A stretch of DNA of 32,270 nucleotides, taken from positions 1-32,270 of the forward strand of contig JAAYAM010000216.1 of assembly GCA_012719355.1 (NCBI GenBank). The letters run 5' to 3'. Shown here in pieces: positions 5,592-17,351 of the stretch (its first letter is position 1; each line of letters begins with the position of its first letter). Origin of the DNA: Acidobacteriota bacterium. Its GTDB lineage: Bacteria > Acidobacteriota > UBA6911. The translations under genes and the position numbers were made by a program. The notes beneath the pieces are model-generated. The model did not search any database. It saw only the letters and a program-made list of their open reading frames with translations, and was not told the origin of the DNA.

Positions 5592-5605
5592 ATGATGATG
5601 CTTGA
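5567..5605 (+). CDS. Putative 12-codon leader peptide overlapping the treS start
   Basis: ATG 5567 is preceded by AGGA (5555-5558) at 8 nt spacing and opens a 12-residue ORF (MDRQLNQLNDDA) that stops at TGA 5603-5605. It runs in another frame across the three tandem ATGs at which treS can begin (5592, 5595, 5598). treS itself has no recognisable Shine-Dalgarno, so ribosomes ending the leader could re-initiate on treS (translational coupling). Start, spacing and overlap are visible; function is inference and chance is possible. Confidence 0.3.
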   Translation: MDRQLNQLNDDA

Positions 5606-8600
5606 TACGGAATGCCCTGAGAACAGATGCCCCTGGTATAAAGACGCGATCATTTACGAACTCCATGTCCGCGCGTTCTATGACAGCGATGGCGACGGGA
5701 TAGGGGACTTCAGGGGACTGACCGAACGGCTCGACTACCTGCAAGATCTTGGAGTAACGGCCATATGGCTTCTCCCGTTTTATCCCTCTCCGCTCAAGGA
5801 TGACGGCTACGACATCTCGGATTACACCAGGATCCACCCCAGTTACGGCACGATGCAGGACTTCATCTCATTCCTTCGCGAGGCGCACCACCGTAATCTG
5901 AAGGTCATCACCGAGCTCGTCCTGAATCACACCTCGGACCAGCATTCATGGTTCAAACGCGCGAGACTGTCTCCTCCGGGAAGTTCGTTGCGCAACTTCT
6001 ATGTCTGGAGCGACACGCCGGAGAAGTTCAAGGACGCCCGCATCATATTCAAGGATTTCGAGGCTTCAAACTGGACGTGGGATCACACGGCCGGAGCTTA
6101 CTACTGGCATCGCTTCTACTCGCATCAGCCTGATCTCAACTACGACAATCCGGCAGTCCGGAAGGCGATGTTCCAGGTGGTGGATTTCTGGTTGGAACTC
6201 GGCGTGGACGGCCTCCGGCTTGACGCCGTTCCCTATCTCTTCGAGCGTGAAGGGACCAATTGTGAGAATCTGCCCGAGACCCACGCTTTCCTGAAAGAAC
6301 TGCGTGCGCACGTCGACAGCAAGTTCTCCGACCGCATGCTCCTTGGCGAAGCGAATCAGTGGCCGGAAGACGCCTCCGAATATTTCGGCGACGGAGACGA
6401 GTGCCACATGGCCTTTCACTTCCCGCTGATGCCGCGGCTCTTCATGGCGATCAGGATGGAAGACCGTTTCCCGATAGTAGACATACTCCAGCAGACTCCC
6501 TCCATCCCGCAAACGTGCCAATGGGCGCTGTTCCTGCGCAACCATGACGAGCTGACACTCGAGATGGTCACAGACGAAGAGCGCGACTACATGTACCACG
6601 TCTACGCAACCGACAACCAGGCACGCGTCAATCTGGGCATCCGGCGCCGCCTCGCCCCTCTCCTCAGCCATAACAGGAGGAAGATGGAGTTGATGAAGGC
6701 GCTTCTTCTTTCTCTGCCGGGGACACCCGTCCTCTATTACGGAGACGAGATCGGGATGGGGGACAATATCTATCTGGGAGACCGCAATGGAGTCCGGACT
6801 CCTTTCCAGTGGAGTCCCGATCGCAACGCAGGCTTCTCCAAAGCCACGCCACAGAAGCTCTACCTCCCGGTGATCATTGATCCCGAATATCATTACGAGG
6901 CATACAACGTAGAGGCACAGCAGAACAATCCGAGCTCAATGCTCTGGTTCGTCAAAAGACTGATATCCCTCAGGAAACGTTATCCAGTCGTTTCACGCGG
7001 CTCGATCGAAATTCTTCAGACCACCAACCACAAGATCTTCTGTTTTCTCCGCTCGCTCGAAAACGAGACATTTCTGTGCGTCGCAAACCTGTCCCGCTTC
7101 GCACAGGCAGTGGAAATCGATCTGTCCCGGTACCAGGGGGCGACTCCCGTCGAAGTATTCGGCCAGACGCGTTTTCCCGATGTGGGTTCGTCTCCGTATC
7201 TGCTCACCCTCGGCCCTCATTCCTTTTATTTCTTTGTTCTCGAAAGCCTGCGGGAAGCACAGGAGACGACCGAGGTGCTGGAGACAGCGCTCCCGTCCAT
7301 ATTGATCGAGACAGACTGGAAAGAAGTAATCAAGGCACGCAAGGAAGACCGGCAGCAGCTGGCGGCAGTCCTTCTCCCCTACATAAAGCAGCGCCGGTGG
7401 TTCGGCGGCAAGGCGCGCAACGTTCAGCGGGCCGTCGTGAAGAACCTGGTCAGGCTGCCGTTGCGTTCCAACGTGACGTACATCTGCCTCGTCAACATCG
7501 AATACACCGAAGGCGAACCGGAGACCTATGTCCTTCCGCTGGGATTGGCCGATGGCGCGAAAGCCGACAGCATTCTCCAGAATTCTCCAAAAGCCGCGAT
7601 TGCCTATCTCCGCTTCCGTGGAAGGAAGCAAACGACCGAGAGTCTTCTTTTCGACGCACTCTGGGACAAGGACTTCACCGATGCCCTGCTTCGCTCCATC
7701 ATGCGCAGGCGCGCCTTCAAAATGGATTCCAGCGAAATAGCGCCTGTCGCCACCGAATTCCTGACCGAGATTCTCCCTGCGTCCAAAGCCCTGCCCGAAC
7801 CGTCCATTCCGCAGCTGGAACAGAGCAACACCTCGGTGGTTTTCGGCGACAGGCTTATCATGAAATTTTTCCGGCGGCTTGAATCCGGTATCAACCCGGA
7901 TTTCGAAATCGGCCGCTATCTCTCGAGCCGGAGGTTCCCGAATACACCTCTGCTCGCAGGAGCCGTGGAATACCGGACCGCACGTGAGGAAGGGGCAACT
8001 CTGGCGATCCTGCATCAGTACGTCCGGAATGAAGGAGACGCATGGCATTTCACGCTCGACGCCCTTACCAGGTTCTTCGAGCGCGCCATGACCGAGGAGA
8101 TGAACGAACGGCTGGCGCCGCTGACAAAACAGCCGATCCTGGCGATGGCCAAATCCGAACTGCCCGAAGAAGCAATCGAGTTCCTCGGCACGTATCTGGA
8201 ATCTGCGCGCCTGCTCGGCCAGCGCACGGCGGAACTCCATCTTGTGCTGGCTTCACCGAAAGACGATCCGGCACTCGAGAGCGAACCGCTCACTGATCTC
8301 AACCGCAGGGCGATATACCACTACATCGCGGGACAGGCCGAACAGAAGATACAGATGCTGCGGGAACGCCTGAAAAACATGCCGGATGAAGTCAGGGTTC
8401 CGGCCCGGAAGGTGATTGAAAAGCGTAAGGATCTTGCTAAGTTCGCCAGAGCCATCCTGGAGACAAGAATCGAGGCGAGGCGCATCAGGTGCCACGGCGA
8501 CTATCATCTCGGCCAGGTGCTCTACACCGGCAAGGACTTCATCATCATTGACTTCGAGGGAGAACCGGCGCGACTCCTGGCCCAGAGGCGTATCAAGCAT

Positions 8601-8939
8601 TCACCGATGCGTGATGTGGCGGGAATGATACGGTCCTTCCACTACGCATCCTATGCCCCCCTCTACGGCGAGACAGGCAACATCCGGCGCGAGGACAAGA
8701 CCAGGCTCGAGCCATGGGCACGATTCTGGTACTGCTGCACGGCAGCCACTTTCCTCAAATCGTATCTGGCGTGCGCCGTCGGCGCCCACTTCCTTCCGAA
8801 ATCGAGCAAGGAACTGAAGGTGCTCCTCGACATCTCCATGCTCGAGAAAGGCATTTACGAACTTGGATACGAAATGAACAACCGCCCACAGTGGACCAGA
8901 ATTCCGCTGGAAGGGATACTGCAACTGCTCGAGAAATAG
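5592..8939 (+). CDS. treS: Trehalose synthase / maltokinase fusion (TreS-Mak)
   Basis: The 1115-residue protein fuses a GH13_16 trehalose synthase (maltose alpha-D-glucosyltransferase) to a maltokinase. The GH13 part (residues ~10-560) shows the family opening WYKDAIIYELHVRAF and a full catalytic triad: nucleophile D211 in DGLRLDAV, acid/base E253 in LLGEANQ, and D319 in RNHDEL. The C-terminal half (~580-1115) begins IKQRRWFGGKAR and carries kinase motifs HGDYHLGQ (D970) and IIDFEGEP (D987), as in Mak/Pep2. Known role: interconvert trehalose and maltose, then phosphorylate maltose with ATP to maltose-1-phosphate, the GlgE donor. It is the first gene of a five-gene operon; glgB starts 43 nt downstream. 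Three tandem ATGs occur at the start (5592, 5595, 5598); the first is annotated. Length matches known fusions. Confidence 0.96.
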   Translation: MMMLDTECPENRCPWYKDAIIYELHVRAFYDSDGDGIGDFRGLTERLDYLQDLGVTAIWLLPFYPSPLKDDGYDISDYTRIHPSYGTMQDFISFLREAHHRNLKVITELVLNHTSDQHSWFKRARLSPPGSSLRNFYVWSDTPEKFKDARIIFKDFEASNWTWDHTAGAYYWHRFYSHQPDLNYDNPAVRKAMFQVVDFWLELGVDGLRLDAVPYLFEREGTNCENLPETHAFLKELRAHVDSKFSDRMLLGEANQWPEDASEYFGDGDECHMAFHFPLMPRLFMAIRMEDRFPIVDILQQTPSIPQTCQWALFLRNHDELTLEMVTDEERDYMYHVYATDNQARVNLGIRRRLAPLLSHNRRKMELMKALLLSLPGTPVLYYGDEIGMGDNIYLGDRNGVRTPFQWSPDRNAGFSKATPQKLYLPVIIDPEYHYEAYNVEAQQNNPSSMLWFVKRLISLRKRYPVVSRGSIEILQTTNHKIFCFLRSLENETFLCVANLSRFAQAVEIDLSRYQGATPVEVFGQTRFPDVGSSPYLLTLGPHSFYFFVLESLREAQETTEVLETALPSILIETDWKEVIKARKEDRQQLAAVLLPYIKQRRWFGGKARNVQRAVVKNLVRLPLRSNVTYICLVNIEYTEGEPETYVLPLGLADGAKADSILQNSPKAAIAYLRFRGRKQTTESLLFDALWDKDFTDALLRSIMRRRAFKMDSSEIAPVATEFLTEILPASKALPEPSIPQLEQSNTSVVFGDRLIMKFFRRLESGINPDFEIGRYLSSRRFPNTPLLAGAVEYRTAREEGATLAILHQYVRNEGDAWHFTLDALTRFFERAMTEEMNERLAPLTKQPILAMAKSELPEEAIEFLGTYLESARLLGQRTAELHLVLASPKDDPALESEPLTDLNRRAIYHYIAGQAEQKIQMLRERLKNMPDEVRVPARKVIEKRKDLAKFARAILETRIEARRIRCHGDYHLGQVLYTGKDFIIIDFEGEPARLLAQRRIKHSPMRDVAGMIRSFHYASYAPLYGETGNIRREDKTRLEPWARFWYCCTAATFLKSYLACAVGAHFLPKSSKELKVLLDISMLEKGIYELGYEMNNRPQWTRIPLEGILQLLEK

Positions 8940-8982
8940 CAACACTGCACCGTTGTCGTGCCGATTACTAAAGAGAAACGTT

Positions 8983-10899
8983 ATGGCCCAGTCGAATTAC
9001 ACAATGCAGTATGGAATCAGCCTTCTTACCGACGACGATTTGTACCTTTTCAACGAGGGATCACACTTCCGCATATATGAAAAGATGGGCGCCCATCCGC
9101 TGACTGTCGGCGGCCACCAGGGCACCTACTTCTCTGTATGGGCACCCAACGCGGAGAGAGTCTCGCTGGTCGGGAATTTCAACCACTGGGATGGGATGAG
9201 CCACCTACTGCGGTCCCGCGGAGACTCGGGGATATGGGAAGGCTTCGTTACCGGCATCGGGAAGAACGAGAATTACAAATTTCATATTTCTACGAAATAC
9301 ATGGGATACGTCGTCGACAAGGCAGACCCGATTGCGTTTTTCAGCCAGAAACCTCCCGATACCGCATCGGTCGTTTGGGATTTGAATTACACCTGGCATG
9401 ATCAAACCTGGATGGAAGAGAGGCGGGCCCACAATTCCCTGCACGCTCCCATTTCGGTGTATGAGGTTCATTCAGGGTCGTGGAAGAGAGTCCCGGAGGA
9501 AGATAACCGGCCCCTCAACTACCGCGAACTGGCGCACAGCCTCGCCGAGTACGTGCTCAAAATGGGATTCACCCATGTCGAGCTCATGCCGATAATGGAG
9601 CATCCGTTCTTCGGATCCTGGGGATACCAGGTAACCGGATTCTTCGCGCCCACCAGCCGCTACGGAACTCCTCAGGACTTCATGTATTTCGTGGACTACC
9701 TCCATGGACACGGCATCGGAGTCATCCTGGACTGGGTGCCGTCGCACTTTCCCAATGACGAGCACGGGCTCACTTTCTTTGACGGAACGCATCTTTACGA
9801 GCACGCCGATCCGAGAGTCGGGATGCATCCCGACTGGAATACCTCCATTTTCAATTACGGACGCAACGAGGTCCGGAGTTTCCTGATCAGCAGCGGCCTG
9901 TTCTGGCTCGACAGATATCATATTGACGGACTGCGCATGGACGCGGTCGCCTCCATGCTTTACCTCGACTATTCGCGAAAGGAAGGCGAGTGGATCCCAA
10001 ACCGGTATGGCGGAAGAGAGAACCTGGACGCCGTCGATTTCATCCGGCGCTTCAACCAGGAAGCCTACACGGCATATCCGGACATCCAGGTAATCGCGGA
10101 AGAGTCAACCGCCTGGCCCATGGCTACCAAACCTCCGTACGTCGGCGGTCTCGGCTTCGGTTTCAAGTGGGATATGGGATGGATGCACGACACCCTGAAG
10201 TATTGCAGCCATGATCCCGTGCACCGCAAGTACCACCACAATGAGCTCACATTCCGTTCCCTGTATTCATTTTCTGAGAACTTCATCATGCCTCTCTCGC
10301 ACGATGAGGTCGTGCACGGAAAGGGATCGCTCCTGTCGAAAATGCCCGGCGACGACTGGCAGAAGTTCGCGGCCCTGCGCCTGCTGCTCGGATACATGTA
10401 CTCGCAACCCGGCAAAAAGCTTCTGTTCATGGGAGGCGAAATAGGTCAATGGCGCGAGTGGGATCACAACACCAGCCTGGACTGGAACCTTCTCAAGTAT
10501 GACCGTCACCAGGGATTGCAGAAGTGGGTTGAAGATATAAACAGGCTCTACAGAACCGAACCGGCGCTGCAGGTCGACATTGAACCTGCCGGGTTTGAAT
10601 GGGTCGACGGCGGCGACGCGGATAACAGTGTGATATCTTATTTGAGAAAGGGCCCCTCGGGTGAGACGATACTGGTCGTCTGCAACTTTACCCCTGTCCC
10701 GAGAGAGAATTATCTCGTCGGCGTCCCGGCCGGCGGGTACTGGAGAGAGATCCTGAACAGCGATGCAAAGGAGTACTGGGGCAGCGGCATCGGCAACTCC
10801 GGGGGGCTCCAGGCAAATCCGGTGGCGATGCATGGCAGGGATTTCTCGCTGGCCCTGACTCTCCCCCCGCTGGCGATCGATATTTTCAAGCTGGCGTAG
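8983..10899 (+). CDS. glgB: 1,4-alpha-glucan branching enzyme (GH13_9)
   Basis: The 638-residue protein introduces alpha-1,6 branches into alpha-1,4-glucan in the cytoplasm. An N-terminal CBM48 domain (~40-135; FSVWAPNAERVSLVGNFNHW) precedes the GH13 barrel. Catalytic residues are all present: D320 in DGLRMDAVAS, E373 in VIAEEST and D441 in LSHDEVVHG; a C-terminal beta domain follows. The frame also opens at TTG 8953, but ATG 8983 gives the usual short N terminus and has a purine-rich AAAGAGAA upstream, so it is preferred. It follows treS by 43 nt and precedes the GH57 gene by 59 nt. In this operon it branches the linear glucan made by GlgE. Confidence 0.96.
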   Translation: MAQSNYTMQYGISLLTDDDLYLFNEGSHFRIYEKMGAHPLTVGGHQGTYFSVWAPNAERVSLVGNFNHWDGMSHLLRSRGDSGIWEGFVTGIGKNENYKFHISTKYMGYVVDKADPIAFFSQKPPDTASVVWDLNYTWHDQTWMEERRAHNSLHAPISVYEVHSGSWKRVPEEDNRPLNYRELAHSLAEYVLKMGFTHVELMPIMEHPFFGSWGYQVTGFFAPTSRYGTPQDFMYFVDYLHGHGIGVILDWVPSHFPNDEHGLTFFDGTHLYEHADPRVGMHPDWNTSIFNYGRNEVRSFLISSGLFWLDRYHIDGLRMDAVASMLYLDYSRKEGEWIPNRYGGRENLDAVDFIRRFNQEAYTAYPDIQVIAEESTAWPMATKPPYVGGLGFGFKWDMGWMHDTLKYCSHDPVHRKYHHNELTFRSLYSFSENFIMPLSHDEVVHGKGSLLSKMPGDDWQKFAALRLLLGYMYSQPGKKLLFMGGEIGQWREWDHNTSLDWNLLKYDRHQGLQKWVEDINRLYRTEPALQVDIEPAGFEWVDGGDADNSVISYLRKGPSGETILVVCNFTPVPRENYLVGVPAGGYWREILNSDAKEYWGSGIGNSGGLQANPVAMHGRDFSLALTLPPLAIDIFKLA

Positions 10900-10909
10900 G
10901 GCTTTTTCC

Positions 10910-10928
10910 AAACCGGTGACGCCGGTTT
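10910..10928 (+). other. Hairpin in the glgB-GH57 spacer
   Basis: A perfect 7-bp stem, AAACCGG (10910-10916) with CCGGTTT (10922-10928), has a 5-nt loop. No T run follows and the operon continues, so it looks like an mRNA stability or processing element rather than a terminator (inference). Confidence 0.35.
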
Positions 10929-10958
10929 CCGGCCATTTCCTGGAGAAGAATTCGACCC

Positions 10959-13388
10959 ATGCCAAACTACATCTGCATTCACGGTCACTTTTATCAGCCG
11001 CCGCGTGAAAACCCGTGGCTTGAGACGATCGAGTACCAGGATTCATCCTATCCTTATCACGACTGGAATCAGCGCATTACCGCGGAGTGTTATCATCCCA
11101 ACGCCGTATCCAGGATTTTGGATGAAAAGGGGCGAATCGAAGAGATCACAAACAACTATTCGAAGATCAGTTTTGACTTCGGGCCCACTCTCATGTCATG
11201 GCTCGAGCACGAGGATCCCGAAACCTACGGCCTGATACTGGAAGCGGACCGGGAAAGCCGGGAACGCTACAGCGGGCATGGCTCAGCGATCGCACAGGGT
11301 TATAATCACGCCATACTTCCGCTCTGCAACAAACGCGACAAGATTACGCAGATCGGCTGGGGCATCAGGGACTTTCAGCATCGCTTCGGGAGAGATCCGG
11401 AAAGCCTCTGGCTGCCCGAGACGGCGGTGGATCTGGAAACGCTCGACATAATGGCACAGATGGGGCTCAGGTTTGCGATACTTGCGCCCCACCAGGCCCG
11501 CCGGGTGCGAAAGCGCGGAGAACGAAGCTGCCGCAATGTCGTTAATCAGAATATAGATCCAAGCATGGCGTATGAAATACACCTGCCGACAGGCCGCAGG
11601 CTGGCGCTGTTTTTCTACGACGGGCCGATTTCGCGCTCCGTCGGTTTTGAAAGACTTCTCAGTGACGGTGCGGCATTCGCCAACAGGCTCGTGGGAGCGT
11701 TTTCGGCTGAACGGAAGTGGCCCCAGATTGTGCATATCGCCACCGACGGAGAAACATACGGCCATCACCATCGCTTCGGAGACATGGCGCTGGCATATGC
11801 TCTCCATTCGATCGAAACAGGAAACCTGGCACGCCTTACGAACTATGGAGAGTACCTTGAAAAGCACCCCCCGACCCACCTGGTAGAAATCTGGGAAGAC
11901 AGCTCCTGGAGCTGCGCTCACGGCGTGGCACGCTGGAGAGAAAACTGCGGCTGCAACACCGGCGGCCATCCGGGCTGGAACCAGGAATGGCGTACACCGC
12001 TGCGACAGAGCCTCGACTGGCTGCGGGACCAGCTCGAAAGCCTTTATGACGACGAAGCCATGACTTATCTGAAAGATCCCTGGGCCGCCCGCAACGGCTA
12101 CATAGATGTCCTCCTCGACCGCTCTCCCGAGTCGGTCGACCGCTTTCTGGCTGCATACAGCACCCACCAGCTGAACAAGGACGAAAGGATCCGGGTCCTG
12201 AAGCTGCTCGAACTCCAGAGACACGCGATGCTCATGTACACCAGCTGCGGCTGGTTCTTCGACGATATCTCCGGGATCGAAACCGTCCAGACGCTGCAGT
12301 ACGCGGGCAGGGCTGTCCAGCTCGGAGAAGAGCTTTTTGGGAAAGACAGCATGGAGTCCACCTTCCTGGACATTCTCAAGAGTGCGCGGAGCAATGTGCC
12401 TGAACACGAAAACGGCTGCAAAATCTACGAGAAACTTGTCAAACCATCGATGGTCGACATGTCGAAAGCCGTTGGCCATTACGCCGTGAGCTCTCTCTTT
12501 CAGGAATACCCCGAGAGGTCGAAGATCTACTCTTTCTTTGTCGATCGCCAGTGCTCGAAAACGTTCACCGCCGGCAAATCCAGACTGCTGCTGGGCCGCT
12601 GCCGAATCTCCTCCAAGATTACTGAGGAATCTTCAGAGGTTGAATACGGAGTCGTCTACCTCGGAGATCACAACATCAGCGGAGGCGTGCGTCCCTACCG
12701 GCATGACCCGTCGGAGGCCGGCATGGTCGCCGACCTTGCAGATGCGTTTGAAAGGGCCGATCTGCCGGGAGTCTTCAGACTGATAGACAAGTATTTCGGC
12801 AAGTCCCTCTTCTCGCTGCGATCCCTGTTCAAAGACGAACAGCGGCGGGTGCTCGAGATCATCCTCAAGGCGACAAATGCAGACCTGGAGGAACTCAACC
12901 GCCAGTCATTCGAACGAACCGCACCGCTCATGAAATTTCTTATGTACCTGGGACTGCAACTTCCTCCCCTGTTCAAGGGAATCGCAAACGCTGTCATAAA
13001 CTCACAGCTGCGGCGCGCCTTTGATACAACCGAACTGAATGAGGAGCTGATTTCGGAACTGCTGGAATCAGCCAGATTCTGGCATATCGATCTCGATAGC
13101 GAAGGCCTGGCCTTCACGCTCCGGACCAGCATTGAGAAGATCGCGAGAGAGGCTCATGATCGGCCTGGAGATCTGCCGCTGTTGAGAAGACTGATCGGTG
13201 CGATCCGGCTCACATCAAAACTCCCGTTTGTCATAAACTTTTACCGCACCCAGAACAGCTACTACGATGTTTACATCCACAGCTACCCTAAGTTGAAATC
13301 GGCAGCAGAACAGGGAGAGGAGGCGGCCGATGCATGGGTCAATGAATTCAGGCAGCTGGGAGAGCTGCTTTCGATCAGAGTTGAGTGA
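10959..13388 (+). CDS. GH57 family glycoside hydrolase with DUF3536-type C terminus
   Basis: An 809-residue protein of the GH57 (alpha-amylase/alpha-mannosidase) superfamily. The N-terminal catalytic domain opens with HGHFYQPPRENPW (motif 1), has SLWLPETAVD with candidate nucleophile E154 (motif 3) and HIATDGETYGHHH with candidate acid/base D263 (motif 4). The larger C-terminal part (~330-809) resembles DUF3536 proteins. GGAGAAG lies ahead of ATG 10959. No signal peptide is visible, so it should be cytoplasmic. It sits between glgB and glgE, with only 4 nt to glgE, so it is surely co-transcribed with the GlgE pathway. Substrate and reaction are unknown: a 4-alpha-glucanotransferase, an amylase trimming the glucan, or a second branching-type enzyme are possible. 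Family assignment is firm, function is not. Confidence 0.88.
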   Translation: MPNYICIHGHFYQPPRENPWLETIEYQDSSYPYHDWNQRITAECYHPNAVSRILDEKGRIEEITNNYSKISFDFGPTLMSWLEHEDPETYGLILEADRESRERYSGHGSAIAQGYNHAILPLCNKRDKITQIGWGIRDFQHRFGRDPESLWLPETAVDLETLDIMAQMGLRFAILAPHQARRVRKRGERSCRNVVNQNIDPSMAYEIHLPTGRRLALFFYDGPISRSVGFERLLSDGAAFANRLVGAFSAERKWPQIVHIATDGETYGHHHRFGDMALAYALHSIETGNLARLTNYGEYLEKHPPTHLVEIWEDSSWSCAHGVARWRENCGCNTGGHPGWNQEWRTPLRQSLDWLRDQLESLYDDEAMTYLKDPWAARNGYIDVLLDRSPESVDRFLAAYSTHQLNKDERIRVLKLLELQRHAMLMYTSCGWFFDDISGIETVQTLQYAGRAVQLGEELFGKDSMESTFLDILKSARSNVPEHENGCKIYEKLVKPSMVDMSKAVGHYAVSSLFQEYPERSKIYSFFVDRQCSKTFTAGKSRLLLGRCRISSKITEESSEVEYGVVYLGDHNISGGVRPYRHDPSEAGMVADLADAFERADLPGVFRLIDKYFGKSLFSLRSLFKDEQRRVLEIILKATNADLEELNRQSFERTAPLMKFLMYLGLQLPPLFKGIANAVINSQLRRAFDTTELNEELISELLESARFWHIDLDSEGLAFTLRTSIEKIAREAHDRPGDLPLLRRLIGAIRLTSKLPFVINFYRTQNSYYDVYIHSYPKLKSAAEQGEEAADAWVNEFRQLGELLSIRVE

Positions 13389-13392
13389 TTCG

Positions 13393-15405
13393 ATGGATTC
13401 GGAAAACCGCACTATCATCAACAGTCATCCGCCGAGGCCCGTCATAGAAAATGTCGAGCCGGAGATCGAGGCCGGACGGTTTCCCGCAAAGAGAATTCTT
13501 AACGACAAGGTGAATGTCCGTGCCGATATCCACGCCGACGCGCACGACCTTCTTGCGGCCGCCGTGCTCTACCGGAAAGCAGGAGAGGAAGAGTGGAGTG
13601 AATCTCCTATGACTCTCCTCGTCAACGACCGCTGGGAGGGGTCATTCGTCGTCTCACAGCTTGGATTGTATGAATTCACTATCGAGGCGTGGATCGACCG
13701 GTTCGCCTCATGGAAGAGCCGCCTGCTGAAGAAAGTAGCTGCAGGACAGGAGGTTTCTCAAGACCTGCTGATCGGAGCTGAGCTGATCCGGCATGCAGCC
13801 GACAGAGCTTCCAGGGAAGACTCGCTATTGCTGCAAAACTGGGCCGAGTCTCTGAGCGATCCCAGGCTCAACCTTCCAACGAAAACCGATCTTGTCTCAA
13901 ATAGCATGTTTGATTTGCTGATGGGCCGCTATCCGGACCGGAGCGCCTCGGCAAGCTATGACAGGATTCTCACAATCACGGTCGACCCGGAGATAGCCAG
14001 ATTCAGTTCATGGTACGAGATGTTTCCGCGTTCGGCTTCCGCAGAACCGGGGAAGCATGGCACATTCAGGGACTGCCGGAAAAGGCTGCCGTATATCGCA
14101 GGGATGGGATTCAACGTGCTTTACCTTCCTCCGATTCACCCCATAGGCCGTACCCATCGAAAAGGGAGGAACAACACCCTCCAACCCGACCCGGATGCAC
14201 CGGGCAGCCCCTGGGCGATAGGATCAGACGAAGGAGGACATACCGCCATCCATCCTCAGCTCGGCTCCATGGATGACTTCCGGGATCTCATCCGTAAGGC
14301 ACGCGAAACGGGCATCGAGGTTGCTCTCGACCTGGCTTTCCAGTGTTCTCCCGATCATCCCTGGATCAAAGAACACCCCGGGTGGTTCCGGCGCCGGCCG
14401 GACGGGTCGATCCAGCATGCCGAAAACCCGCCCAAGATTTATGAGGACATAGTCCCGCTCGACTTTGAAACAGACGACTGGAAGGCTCTCTACAAGGAAC
14501 TGTTCGGCGTGGTTATGCTCTGGATTGCACAGGGGGTGCGGGTTTTCCGCGTCGACAACCCGCACACCAAGCCCTACAGCTTCTGGGAATGGCTGATACG
14601 CGAAGTCAAGCAGGCTCACCCCGAAGTGATCTTCCTGTCGGAAGCATTCACCCGTCCCAAAGTTATGTATCGTCTGGCCAAGATCGGGTTCAGCCAGTCG
14701 TATACCTATTTCACGTGGCGCCATACGTCTCACGAACTGCGCACATACCTTACCGAACTGACCCGGCCCCCTCTGGCCGAATATTTCCGGCCGAACCTGT
14801 GGCCCAATACCCCCGACATCCTCCCTGTTCACCTGCAGTTTGGAGGACGCCCCGCATTTCAGATGCGCCTCATCCTGGCGGCCACCCTCGGATCAAATTA
14901 CGGGATCTACGGCCCGGCATTCGAACTGTGCGAGAACACGCCGATTGCTGTCGGTAAAGAGGAGTACCTTGATTCAGAAAAATATGAGATTCGTCACTGG
15001 AACCTGCAGCAGTCGGGGGCGCTCTCGCCTATCATCACCCGCATAAACACCATCCGCAGGGAGAATCCCGCGCTTCAAAGCGACAGGAACCTGCGTTTCC
15101 ACGAGGTCAGCAACGACCAGCTTCTTGCATACAGCAAACATACGGATGATCTGTCCAACATCATACTCACCGTCGTCAACCTGGATGCAGATAATGTCCA
15201 GTCGGGATTCATCAAACTTCCTATGGAAGAATTGAACATTACGACATCCAGGCCTTTCCAGGTTCACGACCTGCTCAGCGCAAGACGCTACCTCTGGAGC
15301 GGGACCAGCCACTATGTGGAAATCAATCCGCACAGCATGCCGGCTCACGTTTTCCGGCTCCGTCGTTACGTGCGCAGCGAGAAGGATTTCGACTATTATC
15401 TCTGA
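13393..15405 (+). CDS. glgE: Alpha-1,4-glucan:maltose-1-phosphate maltosyltransferase (GH13_3)
   Basis: GlgE transfers maltosyl units from alpha-maltose-1-phosphate to the non-reducing end of alpha-1,4-glucan. The 670-residue protein has the N-terminal GlgE domain (~1-195; starts PRPVIENVEPEIEAGRFPAK), then a GH13 barrel (from ~204, FSSWYEMFPRS) with LPPIHPIGRTHRKG. The nucleophile is D388 in FRVDNPHTKP and the acid/base is E417 in FLSEAFTRPK; both motifs are GlgE-specific. Length is close to characterised actinobacterial enzymes. The frame also opens at ATG 13330 inside the GH57 gene, but ATG 13393, 4 nt after the GH57 stop, fits the family N terminus and is preferred; GAGTGA at the gene junction is a modest ribosome site. 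glgM follows after 23 nt. Confidence 0.96.
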   Translation: MDSENRTIINSHPPRPVIENVEPEIEAGRFPAKRILNDKVNVRADIHADAHDLLAAAVLYRKAGEEEWSESPMTLLVNDRWEGSFVVSQLGLYEFTIEAWIDRFASWKSRLLKKVAAGQEVSQDLLIGAELIRHAADRASREDSLLLQNWAESLSDPRLNLPTKTDLVSNSMFDLLMGRYPDRSASASYDRILTITVDPEIARFSSWYEMFPRSASAEPGKHGTFRDCRKRLPYIAGMGFNVLYLPPIHPIGRTHRKGRNNTLQPDPDAPGSPWAIGSDEGGHTAIHPQLGSMDDFRDLIRKARETGIEVALDLAFQCSPDHPWIKEHPGWFRRRPDGSIQHAENPPKIYEDIVPLDFETDDWKALYKELFGVVMLWIAQGVRVFRVDNPHTKPYSFWEWLIREVKQAHPEVIFLSEAFTRPKVMYRLAKIGFSQSYTYFTWRHTSHELRTYLTELTRPPLAEYFRPNLWPNTPDILPVHLQFGGRPAFQMRLILAATLGSNYGIYGPAFELCENTPIAVGKEEYLDSEKYEIRHWNLQQSGALSPIITRINTIRRENPALQSDRNLRFHEVSNDQLLAYSKHTDDLSNIILTVVNLDADNVQSGFIKLPMEELNITTSRPFQVHDLLSARRYLWSGTSHYVEINPHSMPAHVFRLRRYVRSEKDFDYYL

Positions 15406-15428
15406 GAAAGCCGGGGTGACAGCGAGCG

Positions 15429-16619
15429 ATGAAGATCCTGATTCTGACCAATGAATACCCGCCGAACGTTTACGGCGGAGCAGGTGTCCATGTTGAGTAT
15501 CTCGTGCGCGAACTGGCCCGGGCGGATGCGTCTTCCAGCATTCAGGTGCTCTGTTTCGGAGACCAGGAGATGGACGGATCGAATCTGCGGGTCCGCGGAG
15601 TTGACCGGATAATGCAGTCGCCGGACACAGAACTGCGCTATCCCGAGCTGCAGAATACCCTGGTCAGGCAACTCTCGATGATCGGCTGCGCCGACGCGGC
15701 CGACATAATCCATTGCCACACGTGGTATACACACCTTGCCGGCTGCCTGCTCAAGCAGCTGCTCGGCGGACGGCTCGTCCTCACCACCCATTCCCTGGAG
15801 CCGCACCGTCCCTGGAAAGCCGAACAGCTTGGACCGGCTTACAACGCCAGTTCGTGGATGGAAGAAACCGCATACCGTAATTGCGACGGAGTCATTGCTG
15901 TCTCGAAATCGATGAAAGAGGACGTACGGCGGCTTTACAAAGTGCAGGAAGAGAGGATCGGAATAATTCATAATGGCATCGACGCGACAGAATACCGTCC
16001 CCGGACTGAACCGGAGGTCCTGCCTCGCTACGGCATCAATCCACAGAAGCCCTACATACTCTTTGTGGGACGCATGACCCGGCAAAAAGGGATACTCCAC
16101 CTGATCAATTCGGTGCCGTACTGTTCTGCGGATGTGCAGATGGTGCTGTGCGCGGGAGCGGCCGACACCAAAGAGATGGAAGCCGAGATATTCAGCAGGG
16201 TGGAGGAGGTCCGGCGAGAAAGCCGCAAAGAAATCGTCTGGGTTCCGCAAATCGTGCCGAAACCGGACATATTCGCCCTGTACAGTCTGGCCGAACTCTT
16301 CGTCTGCCCGTCGGTCTACGAGCCTTTCGGCATCATCAATCTCGAGTCGATGGCATGCGGCACTCCGGTCGTCGCGTCAAAGGTCGGCGGGATACCGGAA
16401 ATCGTAGTTGATGGGGAAACCGGCCTGCTCGTCCCCTTCGATCCTGAAAACACGGACAGGTTTTCGCGCGACCTGGCTTCCGCCATCGATTCCCTGCTGG
16501 CTTCACCGGAAAGGCTGGCAGCAATGGGAAGGAAATCGCGGGAGCGTGTCAAACGGTACTTCAGCTGGCAGAGTATTGCGCGCCAGACATGGGAATTCTA
16601 CCGGCGCCTGGCGTCATGA
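15429..16619 (+). CDS. glgM: Glycogen synthase of the Corynebacterium type / maltose-1-phosphate synthase (GT4)
   Basis: A 396-residue GT4 glycosyltransferase. It opens MKILILTNEYPPNVYGGAGV, typical of this family rather than GT5 GlgA, has the donor-site FVGRMTRQKG and the E-x7-E motif (E298 in YEPFGI, E306 in NLES) followed by MACGTPVVAS. Characterised actinobacterial relatives make alpha-maltose-1-phosphate from ADP-glucose and glucose-1-phosphate, feeding GlgE; older annotations call them glycogen synthase (glgA). Position directly behind glgE supports the GlgM role. No ADP-glucose pyrophosphorylase gene (glgC) is in the window. It is the last gene of the operon and converges on a small gene whose stop is 4 nt away, with no clear terminator between them. 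Confidence 0.92.
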   Translation: MKILILTNEYPPNVYGGAGVHVEYLVRELARADASSSIQVLCFGDQEMDGSNLRVRGVDRIMQSPDTELRYPELQNTLVRQLSMIGCADAADIIHCHTWYTHLAGCLLKQLLGGRLVLTTHSLEPHRPWKAEQLGPAYNASSWMEETAYRNCDGVIAVSKSMKEDVRRLYKVQEERIGIIHNGIDATEYRPRTEPEVLPRYGINPQKPYILFVGRMTRQKGILHLINSVPYCSADVQMVLCAGAADTKEMEAEIFSRVEEVRRESRKEIVWVPQIVPKPDIFALYSLAELFVCPSVYEPFGIINLESMACGTPVVASKVGGIPEIVVDGETGLLVPFDPENTDRFSRDLASAIDSLLASPERLAAMGRKSRERVKRYFSWQSIARQTWEFYRRLAS

Positions 16620-16623
16620 TCAG

Positions 16624-16875
16624 CTATTCCGGAGAACCGGGCCTGCGGCTGAAGAACGCCGCGACCGCGACCAGGGTCCAGGTCGCCTCAAGGACCACGA
16701 ACGGCAGGAAGCCGATAAGGTAGCTTGCCCAGCAGGCAAGGGCACCTCCGACGGCGTTCAATCCCTGGTAGATGCGGGATTGCCTTCCCAGTTTCCCTGT
16801 GAGATTCAGAAAGAACCCGCCCAGCAGCAGAGCTACTCCGGCGGTTCCCATCCATTGAGCAGCCAGGTTTGACAT
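16624..16875 (-). CDS. Small CBU_0592-type membrane protein
   Basis: An 83-residue protein with three hydrophobic segments (about residues 6-24, 35-55, 57-74). Its pattern MGTAGVALLLGGFFLN.TGKL, then YQGLNAVGGALA and a final PFVVLEATWTLVAVAAFF, matches the CBU_0592 family of small inner-membrane proteins, whose function is unknown. ATG 16875 is chosen because GAGG stands 8 nt before it; the frame extends upstream to 16926, but that stretch is hydrophilic and overlaps the terminator of the preceding gene. It lies downstream of the rhodanese gene but behind that gene's terminator, so it probably has its own transcription. It converges on glgM with a 4-nt gap. Confidence 0.75.
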   Translation of the reverse strand: MSNLAAQWMGTAGVALLLGGFFLNLTGKLGRQSRIYQGLNAVGGALACWASYLIGFLPFVVLEATWTLVAVAAFFSRRPGSPE

Positions 16876-16910
16876 GTGAGCGTCCTCGGAACTACGGCCC
16901 TTTTGCCGCT

Positions 16911-16942
16911 GAGAAAAGGGGCGCAAGACCTTCTCGCGCCCC
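16911..16942 (-). terminator. Rho-independent terminator of the rhodanese gene
   Basis: Read on the minus strand, GGGGCGCGAGA (16942-16932) pairs with TCTTGCGCCCC (16928-16918) around a 3-nt loop: 11 pairs including one G-U. TTTTCTC (16917-16911) follows directly. On the plus strand the G-U becomes an A-C mismatch and no T run follows, so it works in the minus direction. It lies 58 nt past the rhodanese stop codon. Confidence 0.8.
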
Positions 16943-17000: not shown

Positions 17001-17351
17001 TCATTTCTTTTCGGTGGGATAGCCTGCCTCCAGCCACGTATCCATACCCCCAAGAAGGGGATGGACATCATTGAATCCGAACGTTGCAAGTTCTTCCGCC
17101 ACACGGGCGCTTGATCCTTCGTTCGGTCAAGTGCAGTACGTCACAATGGTGTGACCCCGCTTCAGGCCGCCCACGTGTGACCGGACATCATCGGCGGGAA
17201 TCCGGACAGCTCCAGGGAGCCTTACGTCGGATTCAGACCACGCCTTGGGGTTACGGGAATCGACAAACAGGATCGACTCTCCCCGCTCGAAACGCCCATA
17301 GGCATCATCCACCGTAATCCTCGTTGGTTCATGAGGTACCGGTTGTCTCAT
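17001..17351 (-). CDS. Rhodanese-like sulfurtransferase, candidate selenoprotein (in-frame UGA at codon 75)
   Basis: A single-domain rhodanese of 116 residues if the TGA at 17127-17129 is decoded. Start ATG 17351 is 11 nt behind AAGGAG. Before the TGA: FVDSRNPKAWSESDVRLPGA and GHTIVTYCT, i.e. the active-site strand with catalytic Cys73. After it, in the same frame, PNEGSSARVAEELATFGF and then LLGGMDTWLEAGYPTEKK, a normal rhodanese C terminus, with stop TGA at 17001-17003. In the many homologues with a CxCPNE-type loop the interrupted position is a second Cys, so TGA replaces TGC and would give a Cys-Thr-Sec motif. There is no other lesion, and ribosome site, terminator and downstream hairpin are intact. 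Selenocysteine insertion is an inference; a recent nonsense mutation leaving a 74-residue stump is the alternative. No sel genes are in the window. Likely role: cytoplasmic sulfur or selenium transfer, or thiol redox chemistry. Confidence 0.8.
17077..17126 (-). promoter_or_regulatory. Putative bacterial SECIS element
   Basis: Directly after the UGA the minus-strand RNA can fold into a nested hairpin. The outer stem is CCGAAC (17126-17121) with GUUCGG (17082-17077). The middle stem is CAAG (17113-17110) with CUUG (17090-17087). The upper stem is CGCC (17109-17106) with GGCG (17100-17097). The apical loop is CGUGU (17105-17101). The loop begins 21 nt after the UGA, the upper stem has 4 bp and G is the second loop base. 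This meets the bacterial SECIS consensus as I recall it (16-37 nt spacing, upper stem of at least 4 bp, G in the first two loop bases). The pairing was read by eye, not folded by program. Confidence 0.55.

Follow-up and report, generated by a model that had tools for sequence, protein, structure and literature searches.

Our comparison of homologous sequences indicates that a short hairpin in the messenger RNA of a rhodanese-like gene of an Acidobacteriota bacterium is very probably a bSECIS core, which would be bound by SelB and insert selenocysteine (Sec) at codon 75 of a CxU rhodanese. Both the UGA at codon 75 and the reading frame past it are conserved, and the genome encodes the full Sec machinery; SelB binding and the actual insertion of Sec are the steps that we infer. 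The apical hairpin is a SECIS of the already known bacterial type.

The gene was found on the minus strand of the window, i.e. the whole stretch of 32,270 nucleotides that we analysed, with the following features.

17001..17351, minus strand: predicted rhodanese-like selenoprotein gene, translated with TGA=U; ATG at 17351-17349, Sec codon 75, terminal UGA at 17003-17001
17127..17129, minus strand: in-frame UGA (predicted Sec75), within the CxU motif YCTU, two residues past the catalytic-position Cys73

With UGA 75 read through (translation with TGA=U) the product has 116 residues, and the residues around the UGA are YCTU-PNEGSSARVA. It scores 38.5 bits against Pfam Rhodanese (PF00581), above the gathering cut-off of 22.2, it also matches solved rhodanese domains, and homologues align with it on either side of the UGA. 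An AAGGAG is located a few nucleotides upstream of the ATG. The product probably has a thiol/selenol redox role or a role in sulfur or selenium transfer; the CxU pair at a rhodanese active site suggests selenenylsulfide redox or sulfur/selenium transfer, and we infer the corresponding enzyme activity. Directly downstream on the same strand is a gene for a small predicted membrane protein (16624-16926), which is possibly co-transcribed with the rhodanese gene and gave no match in a Pfam search. The plus-strand neighbours at positions 5592-16619 of the window resemble a glycogen/alpha-glucan cluster (alpha-amylase family, branching enzyme, GT4 synthase), in which the Pfam check covered the GT4 gene (15429-16619) only.

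The hairpin was located where a preliminary description of this DNA had placed it, starting one base past the UGA. The 50 nt on the 3' side of the UGA (minus strand, 17126-17077; UGA at 17129-17127) read CCGAACGAAGGAUCAAGCGCCCGUGUGGCGGAAGAACUUGCAACGUUCGG and contain two nested features.

17097..17109, minus strand: predicted bSECIS conserved core, the apical hairpin CGCC-CGUGU-GGCG; stem 17109-17106 with 17100-17097, loop 17105-17101, with G at 17104 and U at 17103
17077..17126, minus strand: extended hairpin as first drawn; basal stem 17126-17120 with 17083-17077, middle stem 17113-17110 with 17090-17087

With base 1 being the first one past the UGA, bases 18-21 pair with 27-30 in the apical stem, and the loop covers 22-26. 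The sequence confirms the loop CGUGU at 21 nt from the UGA, with G as the second loop base. A stretch of 53 nt folds at -16.7 kcal/mol. This fold has the apical stem (CGCC/GGCG) and a basal stem of 7 bp (CCGAACG/CGUUCGG); the 45-nt part in which the basal stem is incomplete folds at -7.7 kcal/mol. The ensemble probabilities are 0.70 for the apical stem, 0.73 for the basal stem and 0.04 for the middle stem (CAAG/CUUG), which is absent from the minimum free energy (MFE) structure. The description had drawn three nested stems of 6, 4 and 4 bp; the apical and basal ones are retained in the MFE structure, the latter with 7 bp and not 6. The fold is only modestly better than those of shuffled sequences (z -1.5), with 13 of 200 shuffles being as stable. 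A search of Rfam gave no match at the gathering score, and only chance matches below it.

The bSECIS consensus of bSECISearch has a loop of 3-9 nt, a stem of 4-16 bp, a distance of 16-37 nt from the UGA, an MFE below -7.5 kcal/mol, and a G in the first two loop positions followed by U or G (PMC13188914, Fig. 2 legend). The rhodanese element agrees with it in its loop of 5 nt, its stem of 4 bp, its G at loop position 2 followed by U, its 21 nt from UGA to loop and its MFE (-16.7 kcal/mol over 53 nt), and differs in the loop bases N1/N2, which are unpaired here (C/U); their pairing is possible in 20 of the 63 distinct UGA-bearing homologues described below. We scanned the window with our own implementation of these published rules, not with bSECISearch itself, and observed a hairpin that fits the rules after 591 of its 960 UGA trinucleotides; for 545 of these the MFE is at most -7.5 kcal/mol. 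Spacing, stem and loop base do fit the rules, as had been claimed, yet the rules are nearly uninformative in this DNA. A further argument, that the stems could not have arisen free of constraint, is invalid as it was made, since most UGAs precede rule-fitting hairpins and the lower stems are peculiar to this sequence. The same count is in line with the UGA being a true stop, in which case the gene would be a pseudogene or encode a truncated protein of 74 residues and the hairpin would have arisen by chance; the hairpin alone proves nothing, and therefore the evidence has to come from homologues.

One useful relative, L017, came from a search of contigs, and many others were recovered when 396 genomes were searched across the phylum. 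L017 originates from a groundwater Acidobacteria MAG; it is the nearest relative found and keeps the UGA with 54% identity across it. We read 96 loci, 67 of which have a UGA, all at this CxU codon, while the other 29 have UGC or UGU. After duplicates were removed, the UGA set has 63 distinct sequences including this gene and spans about 21 families; the Cys set (n=29) is dominated by one family. CxU rhodaneses that carry the in-frame UGA and are fused to VTT (DedA-type) proteins were found in several acidobacterial families. At L027:850-1848, L043:1462-2460 and L025:1394-2419 the UGA-bearing CxU rhodanese makes up the C-terminal part of such membrane proteins. That the UGA is a true stop is highly improbable given these data: about 21 families, with 63 distinct homologues, retain it, the sequence past it is conserved, and the conservation of the frame beyond it strongly contradicts termination. 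The constraint on silent sites of the apical hairpin and the tracking of SelA by the UGA across genomes, both given below, speak against it as well.

Conservation within the hairpin is confined to its apical part. The apical 4-bp stem is complete in 56 of the 63 UGA homologues and its inner three pairs in 62, and without exception base 23 is G (63/63) and base 24 is U or G (63/63). All four pairs together with a G[G/U] loop occur in 56/63 UGA homologues and in 0/29 Cys homologues; all four pairs are found in one of the 29 Cys sequences, and a G at base 23 in none (0/29). The basal stem is complete in 1/63 and the middle stem in 5/63 of the UGA homologues. RNAalifold predicts exactly the apical stem and nothing more for the UGA set, and no structure for the Cys set (n=29). 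The two lower stems are not conserved and lie outside the conserved element. The expectation that UGA-containing orthologues would show conserved stems with compensatory changes is thus borne out for the apical stem, and fails for the basal and middle ones.

A variant of the SECIS reading holds that the full structure as drawn is functional, its 6-7 bp basal stem being a lineage-specific strengthening. In favour of this variant are the lower helix that E. coli-type SECIS elements have close to the UGA and the ensemble probability of about 0.73 for the basal stem here. The message of this gene may form the basal stem. We consider the variant unlikely, as the stem is complete in one of the 63 UGA homologues, and pairing at basal-stem positions occurs in 43% of cases for the UGA set compared with 70% for the Cys set, in which no SECIS is needed.

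In the UGA homologues, silent sites of the hairpin core are under selection. We re-drew synonymous codons at each gene's own third-base composition and obtained the apical stem with a G[G/U] loop in an expected 5.0 of the 63 sequences, where 56 were observed (P about 3e-56, uncorrected for relatedness); it is in this apical part only that the SECIS reading first given to the hairpin is upheld. With one sequence counted per family (21 groups), 19.6 were observed and 1.8 expected, with P at most 8e-17 over 200 draws, and at every codon register to which the feature was slid it was found in 0/63. The residue at codon +8 varies among Arg, Ser and Gly in the UGA set, while its codon is always N-G-[U/G] (63/63). 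Arg at this place is encoded by CGU 26 times, CGG 17 times, AGG three times and CGC never, whereas CGC is the commonest Arg codon elsewhere in the domains (228/492). Likewise, Ala at +7 is encoded by GCC in 61 of 62 cases, compared with 243 of 654 elsewhere in the domains.

The outer pair of the apical stem, 17109:17097 (18:30), links two silent third positions. In the 63 UGA members it is C-G in 47, U-A in seven, G-C in one, a wobble pair in two and unpaired in six. U-A pairs were observed in at least three separate places, namely L046, L087 and the clade L075/L077/L082/L089/L092, and the G-C pair in L062. The tree was built from protein with the hairpin codons left out; it has few columns and leaves many forks open, so that these lineages were counted by inspection with no formal test. 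The other three apical pairs hardly vary, and the case for covariation therefore rests mainly on this one pair together with silent-site conservation. As a control, the Cys set is weaker than 0/29 implies: its codon +8 is usually Lys, so that its expected count under synonymous randomisation is also 0; the lack of the loop G in this group is partly an amino-acid difference. The cleanest contrast between Sec and Cys forms is the sister pair of L038 (Sec, with the hairpin) and L047 (Cys, without it), in which the UGA and the hairpin were lost together.

The same genome encodes matches to selA (555 bits), selB (398 bits over the full length) and selD (366 bits), and a tRNA-Sec with anticodon UCA (68.7 bits). 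Its selD carries an in-frame UGA of its own (L021:1531; G000 C126). At 20 nt from the selD UGA there is a hairpin GUCCGGC-GGU-GCUGGAC with a GGU loop, in a register similar to that of the rhodanese element. Formate dehydrogenase was searched for in this genome as another selenoprotein, and no member scored above the cut-off. Across 80 genomes, SelA was found in 53 of the 54 with UGA homologues and in 3 of the 26 with Cys homologues only. The lone UGA genome without a SelA match is G340, which has two UGA rhodaneses (L049 and L060); possibly its assembly is incomplete or it uses another Sec route. The three genomes that have a Cys-form rhodanese yet keep SelA (G393, G056 and G081) are candidates for a recent change from Sec to Cys.

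In another reading, a reassigned or suppressor tRNA would decode the UGA as Cys or Trp independently of SelB, and the hairpin would be a pause signal for translation or a by-product of protein coding. In its favour, homologues without the UGA have Cys at the position of codon 75. Such reading is nevertheless very improbable, since a UGA terminates the same gene at 17003-17001, and the tRNA-Sec is the only tRNA with a UCA anticodon found by our single-family searches. It also does not predict that UGA homologues track selA, and the synonymous-codon test excludes a by-product of the protein code. As a UGA also ends the same open reading frame, each message has two UGA readings, and a local signal is needed. 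Under the SECIS reading, SelB would bind the apical stem CGCC/GGCG and the loop N-G-[U/G]-N-Y in the mRNA, 21 nt past UGA 75, and would deliver Sec-tRNA(Sec) to this UGA, making codon 75 selenocysteine, while the terminal UGA (codon 117) would still end translation. The product would be a single-domain rhodanese of 116 residues with the active-site motif Cys73-Thr-Sec75.

Single-domain rhodanese/GlpE-type sulfurtransferases (PF00581) share with this protein the rhodanese domain, by sequence, and the catalytic Cys position in YC. The usual rhodanese active-site loop is C-x-x-G-x-R. The protein differs from the GlpE type in its predicted Sec two residues past the catalytic-position Cys and in its loop C-T-U-P-N-E-x-S-S-A-R. 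CxU rhodaneses are already among the predicted prokaryotic selenoproteins, as 'form 3', NCBIfam NF041203 rhodanese_LYCAU (PMC13188914), and as 'COG0607 form 2, CxU' (PMC9312934). NF041203 is the top NCBIfam match of our protein (92.4 bits, residues 25-116), with the CxU motif in the YC active-site loop. This score is under the curated cut-off of 115 bits, and we therefore term the protein close to NF041203 and not a member of it. L017 (107 bits) and L027 (77 bits) are also below the cut-off, three acidobacterial members having been scored in all. Another difference from NF041203 is that several acidobacterial homologues are C-terminal domains of VTT (DedA-type) membrane proteins. No paper on DedA-rhodanese selenoproteins was found in a literature search that covered few subscription journals.

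We have very probably found a well-supported new example of a known mechanism, SECIS-directed Sec insertion in a CxU rhodanese. We tentatively speculate, with somewhat more doubt than belief, that the acidobacterial CxU rhodaneses, often fused to VTT/DedA, form a phylum-wide selenoprotein subfamily, so far not described as one, that has a compact SECIS core of its own, GCC-NG[U/G]-NYG. If this is true, the SECIS core of the subfamily fixes the codon of a variable residue.

Standard gene calling terminates the rhodanese gene at the UGA and therefore misses the full protein. A match to the bSECIS rules without homologues should not count as evidence, because most UGAs in this DNA are followed by a chance fit. 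This family is an unusually clean comparative case, having both Sec and Cys homologues of one protein, so that the RNA signal can be separated from the protein code. What emerges is a minimal SECIS core, consisting of a 4-bp stem and a G-[U/G] loop, with the lower stems left free.
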